A stretch of 13,434 nucleotides of DNA from Candidatus Hydrogenedentota bacterium (lineage in GTDB: Bacteria; Spirochaetota; Leptospiria; Turneriellales; J094): NCBI GenBank assembly GCA_003695005.1, contig RFJE01000430.1:1-13434 (forward strand). The letters are read 5' to 3'. Positions 1,961 through 11,339 of this stretch are shown one piece after another. The translations under genes were made by a program, and so were the position numbers. A model generated the notes under the pieces. That model worked only from the letters and a program-made list of their open reading frames with translations, was not told where the DNA came from and did not search any database. Numbering within the stretch: position 1 is the stretch's first letter; each line of letters opens with the position of its first letter.

Positions 1961-1994
1961 TTTTCCCCTTCACCGAGGATTGCTGTATCGCTGA
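1961..1994 (+). repeat. Partial copy (copy C, right end) of a dispersed intergenic repeat
   Basis: Bases 1961-1977 (TTTTCCCCTTCACCGAG) are identical to 8465-8481. The following bases to 1994, ending TATCGCTGA, match 8482-8501 apart from one substitution and a 3-base gap. Only the right end of the repeat seen at 8350-8501 is present; no hairpin arm with CCTGCTCGTGCTCAAA is found nearby. It starts just after the stop codon of the lipoprotein gene. Confidence 0.8.
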
Positions 1995-8292: not shown

Positions 8293-8349
8293 GCTTACTT
8301 CCATAGTCGAAAAAGCAATGTCACGGGCAACTAAAAATGTTTATAGCGA

Positions 8350-8380
8350 TCAGCGATACGGCGAAACGCCGTATCGCTGA
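8350..8380. repeat. Perfect 14-bp hairpin with AAA loop
   Basis: TCAGCGATACGGCG, then AAA, then its exact reverse complement. It forms the left end of repeat copy A and lies about 58 bases upstream of the gspD start codon, so it could affect the gspD promoter or leader. A near-identical hairpin, with one mismatch in the stem, is at 10905-10931. Confidence 0.9.
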
Positions 8381-8501
8381 ATCTAGATTCAAAAAAAGGG
8401 AAAAAAGGCCTGCTCGTGCTCAAACAGTCCTCGCTTAAGGCTGCGGAACTGCGCCGAGCAGGCCTTTTCCCCTTCACCGAGAATTGCTGCCGTATCGCTG
8501 A
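8350..8501 (+). repeat. Full copy (copy A) of a hairpin-rich dispersed repeat with 13-bp terminal inverted repeats
   Basis: This fills the middle of the 312-base gene-free region between gspD and the ferredoxin gene. In order: a 31-base perfect hairpin (8350-8380); a 12-base palindrome GAATCTAGATTC (8379-8390); an A-rich spacer; a 14-bp stem (8403-8416 with 8455-8468) whose left side continues as CCTGCTCGTGCTCAAA (8409-8424); and a tail TTTTCCCCTTCACCGAG (8465-8481) ending GCCGTATCGCTGA. The outer 13 bases (8350-8362 and 8489-8501) are exact inverted repeats. The same blocks recur in reverse orientation at 10696-10934, and the tail recurs at 1961-1994. This is the layout of a non-autonomous MITE/REP-like element; no transposase gene is in the window. 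Confidence 0.8.
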
Positions 8502-9727: not shown

Positions 9728-10687
9728 TTAAAAAAGATGCGGAATAGGAAGCAAATTAAAAAATGAATTTTGAATTTCTTTCTGCACACGAGCAGTAATT
9801 TTAGCTTCCATGGAGTGTTTTATTTTCAAAAGCCAATTCGAGAAACTTGTATTCGTCTTATCTTGTAAGCGTATATAAAGAATCATTCCATTTTTGGAGT
9901 GACATAATTTATCAATTGTTCTTTGGATTTTATCTGCTAAAAGTTTTTTTGGCTGGTTTAACTTTAGCTTTCGAAATGTAATTTTTAGAAAAAGAGAGAG
10001 AATATCATCTTTTTTTTTCATATCGAAATCAAATGTGCCAGCAGCTTCTCGAATGGAGTTCGTCCTTATTTGTATAGACTGCAGAAAGTTGGATAGTGAC
10101 GTCACTTTTCCGTTTACTTTGATATCCATATCATTAGCTTGTTTTGCAAGACCAAATGTTATTAAGCTATTTTTTGTACGCAAATTTTGTCTTGCACTTT
10201 TTTTATCTCGGACTAACATTATTTTTGCTTTGCCTTTTGCATGTAATTTTTTAAACACCAAATTGAAATCATGAATAAAAAATTCACTCTTTGATGTAAG
10301 ATATTTTGAAGGGTTTTGCTGAAAAAAAGTAAACGCACTATGATAGCAAGGAAGTTTTATGAATGGATTTAAATTTAGGTTTACATGTTCAATTTCGTTT
10401 TTTAATGGTAGAGCATCCCAACGCTCTAAATAAGCACTGTAGTTAGACGCCACCAAAACAGGTTGATTGCATTTTTTTGGCTGCCAAAAAATTTGAGAGA
10501 TTTTTATTCCCGAAGGCAGGATGGCCTGTACACCTTGCAATTTAATTTCTGCAGGCAGCTTTTTTTGAATTGTATAAGGAATAAAAAACCAATATAAAAA
10601 AATGGTTGTTATGATACCGCCCGCAATCAGAATTAGAATTCCATAAAACGGCCACTTGAGTTTTTTAATTACGTTATTTTTTTTCAC
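9728..10687 (-). CDS. Unrecognised membrane-anchored protein, possibly GspN/AsmA-like
   Basis: This 319-residue protein starts at GTG. An in-frame TAG sits two codons upstream and AGG lies six bases upstream, so no earlier start is possible. A single N-terminal membrane segment (about 12-38) is followed by a basic, beta-rich domain that would face the periplasm. The stretch just after the membrane segment (IPYTIQKKLPAEIKLQGVQA, 36-55, then PSGIKISQIFW) resembles the beginning of GspN or AsmA-type envelope proteins, but similarity elsewhere is too weak for a call. The C-terminal third is Lys-rich with alternating amphipathic segments. It lies alone between repeat copy B and the PC4-like gene, and repeat sequence runs to within a few bases of its ribosome site. 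If it is GspN-like, it would complement the gspD-E-F genes in this window. Confidence 0.65.
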   Translation of the reverse strand: MKKNNVIKKLKWPFYGILILIAGGIITTIFLYWFFIPYTIQKKLPAEIKLQGVQAILPSGIKISQIFWQPKKCNQPVLVASNYSAYLERWDALPLKNEIEHVNLNLNPFIKLPCYHSAFTFFQQNPSKYLTSKSEFFIHDFNLVFKKLHAKGKAKIMLVRDKKSARQNLRTKNSLITFGLAKQANDMDIKVNGKVTSLSNFLQSIQIRTNSIREAAGTFDFDMKKKDDILSLFLKITFRKLKLNQPKKLLADKIQRTIDKLCHSKNGMILYIRLQDKTNTSFSNWLLKIKHSMEAKITARVQKEIQNSFFNLLPIPHLF

Positions 10688-10695
10688 TTTAACCT

Positions 10696-10934
10696 AGTAA
10701 TTCTCACGAAAGGGCAAAAAGTCCTGCTGAACGCAGTTTCCGTCCCTGAATCCCTCACCTTTTTTACACAAAGGTAGAACAAGATTTGTTTTCTACTTAA
10801 ATAGGAGCAATGCACGCCATTCATGTTACAAAACGTAAAAAAAGGTGAGGGATGAGGGATTTGAGCACGAGCAGGACTTTTTGCCATATTTTTAATTCGA
10901 CATTAGCAATACGGCGAAACGCCGTATCGCTGAC
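10696..10934 (-). repeat. Full-length variant (copy B) of the dispersed repeat, reverse orientation
   Basis: Read on the minus strand, the blocks follow the same order as in 8350-8501. First is a hairpin (10931-10905, one mismatch, loop of three). Then come a spacer, GGCAAAAAGTCCTGCT with CCTGCTCGTGCTCAAA (10875-10860, identical to 8409-8424), a central part, GGAAACTGCG, AGCAGGACTTTTTGCC, and finally GAGAATTACT (10705-10696), matching GAGAATTGCT at 8479-8488. The central part is about 90 bases longer than in the copy at 8350. It begins two bases after the HIT gene stop and ends just before the ribosome site of the 319-residue gene, so it fills the whole gap between them. Confidence 0.8.
10713..10885. 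repeat. Nested long stem-loop inside repeat copy B
   Basis: The outer arms are an exact 16-bp inverted repeat (GGCAAAAAGTCCTGCT at 10713-10728; complement at 10870-10885). Inside lies a second stem: ATCCCTCACCTTTTTTAC (10750-10767) pairs with 10835-10853 with a single bulged A. A 67-base loop remains, which includes a smaller imperfect hairpin (GTAGAACAA with TTGTTTTCTAC). Co-directional transcription from the HIT gene would place this structure in the RNA. Confidence 0.85.
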
Positions 10935-10935
10935 T

Positions 10936-11274
10936 TTAACCGGGTGGCCATGCAAAAGCACGTCCCCCTAGAAGATGCACATGCAAATGGAACACCGTTT
11001 GTCCCCCATTTTTACCAATGTTGTTTACAATACGATATCCTTCTTCGTCAATTTTTTCTTCTTTTGCAATATCGGCGGCTTTTTTCATGATTTTTCCAAT
11101 TAATTCTTCGTGGCCGGCAATTTCGCGTAAAGACTCAATATGTTTTTTCGGGATAATTAAAATATGAGTTGGCGCCACAGGGAATTTATCGCGGAACGCT
11201 AAAATTTCATCATCTTCGTATACTTTATCTGATGGAATTTCGCCATTTACAATTTTACAAAACAAGCAGTCCAT
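10936..11274 (-). CDS. HIT-family (HinT-type) nucleotide phosphoramidase
   Basis: The 112-residue protein fits the HinT/PKCI branch in length and sequence. It has an N-terminal C3-x2-C6 (CLFCKIVNGEIPS), a His at 45 in IPKKHIESL, NNIGKNGGQ (84-92) and the catalytic histidine triad HLHVHLLGG (H96, H98, H100), ending in WPPG as in HINT1-type proteins. Family members hydrolyse adenosine phosphoramidates and acyl-AMP in the cytosol. All active-site residues are present. The start has a short AAGG close to the ATG, a weak ribosome site. It follows the DegT-family gene after 67 bases containing a hairpin, and a repeat hairpin starts two bases after its stop. It is probably a housekeeping gene unrelated in function to its neighbours. 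Confidence 0.92.
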   Translation of the reverse strand: MDCLFCKIVNGEIPSDKVYEDDEILAFRDKFPVAPTHILIIPKKHIESLREIAGHEELIGKIMKKAADIAKEEKIDEEGYRIVNNIGKNGGQTVFHLHVHLLGGRAFAWPPG

Positions 11275-11312: not shown

Positions 11313-11339
11313 TGTGCGCCAACCTCCTGTTGGCGCACA
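11313..11339. repeat. Perfect 11-bp hairpin between the DegT-family and HIT genes
   Basis: TGTGCGCCAAC (11313-11323) and its exact complement (11329-11339) flank a 5-base loop. On the transcribed (minus) strand the loop reads AGGAG. The structure sits two bases after the DegT-family stop codon. No T-run follows on either strand, so a classical intrinsic terminator is not supported. It may stabilise the 3' end of the message or mark a processing site. Confidence 0.75.

Follow-up and report, generated by a model that had tools for sequence, protein, structure and literature searches.

What is the short, structured repeat that occurs as two near-full copies and one isolated tail in the 13,434-nucleotide window analyzed here (i.e., the whole stretch of DNA under study)? 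Is it an element that has moved, or a structured RNA family that happens to be dispersed? The initial annotation, made from the letters of the window alone, proposed either of these. We conclude that the repeat is a transposed MITE of a family that we did not recognize among known ones and that its end is unusual in being self-complementary; the newness lies in the family and in the anatomy of that end, while the kind of element is already known. In full, our reading is of a short, gene-less, transposed element with defined ends and 9-bp target duplications, which gives rise to solo palindromes by deletion, whose arms undergo template switching, and which survives mainly between genes. We place the probability of this reading at about 0.88.

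A dispersed family and its anatomy

The window is contig C193 of a 2,193,696-base genome in 431 contigs, 80% complete, that stands alone in its family (none of the 40 chosen relatives comes from that family). With up to 3 mismatches allowed, the left-end hairpin matched this genome 29 times on the forward strand and 20 times on the reverse, counts in which one palindrome may appear on both strands, and its reversed control pattern matched 0 times; the right end matched 145 times (70 + 75) and its control twice. On these controls, chance similarity is rejected. A covariance model built from 27 copies was scored on 150 of 1593 first-look candidates and gave 122 matches at E <=0.001 in the 2.19-Mb genome, a number that includes solo hairpins and single places matched on both strands. 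The near-full set used below comprises the 65 uncut matches of at least 65 bits across model positions 1-143; five cut matches above 65 bits were excluded (L236, L248, L154:1-113, L144, and L196). These 65 copies measure 105 to 251 bp, and none contains a transposase gene. The repeat is thus multi-copy and dispersed, and dozens of copies with covarying stems were found where the initial annotation had reckoned with the alternatives that the window held the only copies or that the stems did not covary.

Does the family extend beyond this genome? Under stricter filters the covariance model gave 0 matches in 47 other genomes of the class, and the hairpin was absent from the 40 relatives searched. 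Exact patterns had no match in the genome-contig or viral-contig collections, either of which may omit records of the same or a very near genome, and one copy used as a blastn query had no match among plasmids and phages. Covariance model R1 had 0 matches in 20 of 80 GspE loci. A literature search at the level of titles and abstract openings found no description of this family, from which it does not follow that the family is unpublished.

At its left end the element has a palindrome in one of two forms: 33 nt, in which CAGCGATTCTCGG runs straight into its reverse complement, or 29 nt, with CAGCGATACGG. An A-rich spacer separates this palindrome from a stem of ~20 bp (AGGGNAAAAAGGCCTGCTCG); an inner region follows and, last, the right end CCGAGAATTGCTG. 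Terminal inverted repeats are present (CAGCRATTCTCGG and CCGAGAATTGCTG), with just ~7 bp in elements of the 29-nt type. The right end recurs, in direct orientation, as the inner arm of the left palindrome. The apex of the inner region is a short loop or a palindrome of 31-34 or ~104 bp, mostly TCCCTCACC...GGTGAGGGA.

That apical palindrome belongs to a second family, which occupies the apex in many copies and is found in other places too (window 10751-10852, L012, L038, L144, L158, L167, and others). Its arms had 84 matches versus 2 for the reversed control in 495,624 bases, and no target duplication was evident by eye around these palindromes. Yet another palindrome, GTGCGCCAACCTCCTGTTGGCGCAC, lies behind a DegT-like gene at 11313-11339 of the window and had 5 matches (<=3 mismatches) in the same 495,624 bases, with 0 for the reversed control. 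Several such palindrome families occur in the same genome.

Table 1. Coordinates of the features discussed; positions refer to the window unless a locus is named.
Feature	Position	Strand	Basis
Copy 1, near-full element, 139 bp, 29-nt-type palindrome	8351..8489	+	R1 match, 150.2 bits
Copy 1, left-end palindrome CAGCGATACGGCGAAACGCCGTATCGCTG	8351..8379	+	read in sequence; found across genome
Copy 1, inner stem, left arm (AGGG A-run GGCCTGCTCG)	8397..8416	+	sequence; consensus structure
Copy 1, inner stem, right arm (CGAGCAGGCC T-run CCCC T)	8455..8473	+	sequence; consensus structure
Copy 1, right end CTTCACCGAGAATTGCTG	8472..8489	+	exact match, one of 145 at <=3 mismatches
CCGTATCGCTGA, outside the element, just 3' of copy 1	8490..8501	+	sequence
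Copy 2, near-full element, 238 bp, long apical palindrome	10695..10932	-	R1 match, 89.8 bits; exact duplication
Copy 2, target duplication, one side (ACTTTAACC on + strand)	10686..10694	.	flank comparison
Copy 2, target duplication, other side (ACTTTAACC on + strand)	10933..10941	.	flank comparison
Nested palindrome TCCCTCACC...GGTGAGGGA, apex of copy 2	10751..10852	.	sequence
Right-end fragment CTTCACCGAGGATTGCTG, then TATCGCTGA	1968..1985	+	1 mismatch; no left palindrome upstream
In-frame copy in typA/bipA, 51 codons between GTPase domain and domain 2	L184:2040-2183 (contig C34:5139-5282)	-	homologue alignment
In-frame copy inside a 342-aa ORF	L220:547-690 (contig C57)	other strand to ORF	open-frame test

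Within the window, the two copies and the tail site that had been reported are present, but the boundaries drawn for them do not hold, as the family consensus stops at 8489 and copy 1 accordingly occupies 8351-8489. Nor is copy 1 bounded by exact 13-bp inverted repeats, as had been claimed, because the 12 bases that complete them (8490-8501) fall outside the element. Copy 1 is preceded by TAGCGAT (8344-8350) and followed by CCGTATCGCTG; TAGCGAT and 8490-8501 are probably the remains of an older 29-nt palindrome, which would explain the apparent 13-bp repeats.

Target duplications and the search for a mover

The case for transposition is carried by the flanks. When the nine bases before each copy were compared with the nine after it, 29 of 64 copies had identical flanks, 10 matched at 8/9, 6 at 7/9, and 19 at <=6/9 (the 65th, L189, had too little flank), such that 45/64 match at 7/9 or better. 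In the null comparison of left flanks with the right flanks of other copies, 0/4096 pairs were identical and 0.27% reached at least 7/9. Copy 2 has an exact GGTTAAAGT on either side. Against the transposition reading, copy 1 is among the 19 of 64 copies at <=6/9; its flanks match at 0/9, without a target duplication. One copy (L150) lies in the right-end fragment of another, with CTTCACCGA on both sides and then GAGAATTACTG, and is an insertion with a 9-bp duplication. Together, the 29 exact duplications and this nested copy lend strong support to the multi-copy, non-autonomous element of the initial annotation. Insertion thus duplicates nine target bases, presumably through a cut-and-paste enzyme.

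For the empty-site comparison, the ferredoxin-gspD neighborhood of copy 1 was sought in the 5 closest named loci and not found. The GspE of the window has 61-66% identity to these five, which come from MAGs labeled Spirochaetia (three), Leptospiraceae, and Caldithrix sp. The host is probably an uncultured bacterium related to the Leptospira group. Elsewhere, L145:31-206, at the start of contig C164, has two right-type ends, and its flank on one side recurs in inverted orientation on the other; it is probably a fold-back assembly artifact.

What, then, moved the element? Searches with PF01609, PF00872, PF01797, PF01610, and PF03400 found no match in the 80%-complete genome, with positive controls; PF06782 and PF13737 also had no match, but their controls were silent too, making them uninformative. 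We take the searched families to be transposases that leave 8-9-bp duplications, or tyrosine transposases. One weak IS-sized pair with the same ends was found (L016; 8/9 flank match, poor ends), and apart from it no autonomous element with the same ends emerged from the ~23% of the genome searched and the five informative Pfam searches. The mover may be in the missing 20% of the genome, may be collapsed in the assembly, may be of another family, or may have been lost.

Could the repeats instead be REP-like palindromes moved by a tyrosine (Y1) transposase, a search for which the initial annotation had recommended? Palindromes of 20-40 nt, present in many copies and mostly between genes, would fit that idea, and in these respects the family resembles the GTAG and CGTC REPs, which the passages of PMC3733652 that treat them describe as many-copy palindromes mostly outside genes. 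However, the 80%-complete genome has 0 Y1_Tnp matches (PF01797; controls positive in 5/14), 9-bp target duplications are present, and, unlike in those REPs, no constant GTAG or CGTC tag was seen by eye beside the 39 hairpins outside near-full copies. A REP/Y1 origin of the near-full element is rejected on the first two of these grounds, and as a reading of the family as a whole we consider it barely credible.

Bacterial MITEs are among the closest known systems. Like MITEAba12, as described in part of PMC6382973, the element is short and non-autonomous, with terminal inverted repeats and 9-bp target duplications. The ends of MITEAba12 are common to a resident IS (ISAba12), and the same portion of that account reports no predicted Rho-independent terminator in it (PMC6382973); here, the searches turned up no parent, and the element has a perfect palindrome for its left end, with a long terminator-like stem behind it. 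The pneumococcal SPRITE, BOX, and RUP repeats are likewise short and intergenic and insert into one another, and SPRITE is terminator-like; a 9-bp duplication and a palindromic end are not among the features given for them in the relevant passages of PMC10969869, a comparison made by description and not by sequence.

The self-complementary end

Why should the end of a transposon be a palindrome, and how is it kept? The palindrome also occurs without a body. Three body-less 33-nt palindromes (L182, L187, and L197) carry exact 9-bp duplications, and in all three the left arm is of the left-end type and the right arm of the right-end type. Deletion between the inner arm and the right end predicts precisely these arm types, and we posit from the three exact cases that such a deletion would leave a solo 33-bp palindrome that keeps the target duplication. 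In addition, L026 is a 50-bp remnant with an exact duplication. Hairpins of the 29-nt type number 26 outside near-full copies, several in truncated elements and several without a visible body (e.g., L011:2011, L021:2839, and L029:1196); their adjacent flanking repeats were not above chance, L022:6941 alone being noted at 7/9.

The exact duplications of the three solos, one of which (L182) sits beside the right end of another copy, would also suit a different proposal, in which the 33-bp palindrome, with its two ends back to back, is by itself a complete minimal transposon. On that view each solo would have inserted independently, and the long element would consist of this unit with a second right end added. 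Yet all three solos, and L162 (7/9) as well, have a right arm that belongs to the right-end type (AATTGCTG or AATTACTG) and not to the inner-arm type (AATCGCTG), as deletion predicts. An enzyme that requires such arm asymmetry would yield an identical picture. We regard independent movement of a minimal unit as unlikely.

The two arms of the palindrome change as pairs. Among near-full copies, 39 carry the 33/33 type, 12 the 29/29 type, and 3 (L018, L165, and L156) are 33/29 hybrids; the 14 rows that are not plain 33/33 or 29/29 include some mutated arms labeled "x." A third perfect palindrome type, CTTTTGC, is found in L023, with hybrids in L143 and L153. In a neighbor test on 51 of the 65 rows, palindrome type is not tied to similarity of the body (0.657 versus 0.633, with 816 of 2000 shuffles as high), which may reflect a weak signal. 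Paired change extends to the inner stem. In a MAFFT alignment (A1), 96.2% of cells pair, both sides changed in 12/41 pairs (5.8 when shuffled, 0 to 4 when slid), and the covariation score was 0.153 versus 0.056 shuffled, all with a structure predicted from that same alignment.

Does this covariation mean RNA? If selection on the transcript maintained a structured RNA family (a regulatory RNA or a bidirectional terminator) and its dispersal were secondary, this could account for the 12 pairs changed on both sides, the strong predicted folds (for copy 1, z of -8.2 on one strand and -9.1 on the other; for L146, -9.9), and the stem base with its A-run and T-run. If one RNA strand were under selection, though, an excess of G.U intermediates over A.C would be expected, and the count was 56 versus 60 (16:17 in the end palindrome, 40:43 in the rest) in an alignment fitted to the model, covering 65 of the 66 rows of A3 after one 5'-cut row was dropped; of the 56 G.U cells, 14 fall at a single apical pair. 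Thus, nothing points to selection on one RNA strand, and a one-strand RNA family is rejected. Neither the window nor 13 loci had an Rfam match at gathering thresholds, the classes of gene neighbors are near expectation (see below), and copy 1 precedes the first ATG of gspD by 46 bp, a position where a terminator would be unexpected. The structured RNA family of the initial annotation consequently fares poorly, and we judge it very improbable. No G.U excess would be expected from a transcript that acts both ways, and the elements may therefore terminate transcription as a side effect, yet this is not the evident reason for the family.

The simplest reading of the covariation, in our view, is correction of the arms at the level of DNA. 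That is, template switching during replication would copy one arm onto the other, which would keep paired arms in step in both the palindrome and the inner stem; switching between arms would explain both the perfect types and the hybrids. Template switching can create stems and fix their pairing, according to the portions of PMC8794818 and PMC7202029 that deal with it. Exchange of whole palindromes between copies could be an alternative source of matched arms. One may speculate further that a transposon end is here kept whole by its own palindrome: the end would be stored twice, head to head, its arms would be rewritten by template switching, end types (GATTCTCGG, GATACGG, and CTTTTGC) would replace one another as matched pairs on an unchanged element body, and the palindrome could persist, or even move, by itself as a 33-bp unit. 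We offer this extended scheme tentatively, as a possibility that we would not bet on. The family nonetheless provides a natural set of palindromes, hybrids included and many with the insertion footprint kept, that is suited to testing arm-to-arm correction, and it carries a caution, namely, that covariation in bacterial repeats need not imply RNA structure.

Placement among and within genes

The claim that the copies are all intergenic is correct within the window but does not extend to the genome, where 3 of 65 copies lie inside an ORF (L220, L137, and L184), one of them a real in-frame gene insertion; further copies overlap the end of an ORF. Outside the elements, about 0.89-0.91 of the sequence of element-bearing loci falls within ORFs. 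Of 51 copies, 12 lie between convergent, 27 between tandem, and 12 between divergent genes, near the null expectations of 0.185, 0.532, and 0.283. Copies lie a median of 9 bp from the 3' end of a gene and 61 bp from a 5' end (ORFs of at least 80 aa), and this nearness to stop codons and greater distance from starts is what avoidance of promoters would give. We propose that insertions survive mainly between genes, often just 3' of stop codons, and rarely in frame within genes.

How rare is in-frame insertion? Across 65 copies and 39 hairpins, the hairpins drawn from 102 sequence sources without 24 further loci, the frame is open for at least 150 nt on both sides in 2 of 104 elements and hairpins. 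Both insertions are 144 bp, which with the 9-bp duplication adds 51 codons. In L220, the insert has DIF on either side, encoded by the duplication, and a homologue search with the 342-aa ORF returned itself alone.

The second case, in typA/bipA, reads as a real, open, in-frame insertion. The alignment of the L184 product with the solved BipA chain 8ewh runs as far as chain residue 198, at query position 195, and resumes at 206 with 254; the segment is also missing in the five relatives aligned (5 of 119 listed relatives of other genomes). The organism names visible among the TypA matches listed are Turneriella, Leptospiraceae, Spirochaetia, and Leptospira. The duplication has degraded to 6/9. 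A database protein entry of 462 aa, with 100% identity to the L184 TypA, starts six codons ahead of the insertion, and this start counts against translation of the whole typA frame.

A palindromic element of ~150 bp in frame within a protein gene recalls the Rickettsia palindromic elements, a likeness drawn by description, not by sequence, from parts of PMC10969869 and PMC5656822. Unlike in those elements, in-frame insertion is exceptional here, and target duplications are clear. If translated, the typA copy would show that a palindromic mobile element has become coding sequence in an organism far removed from Rickettsia.
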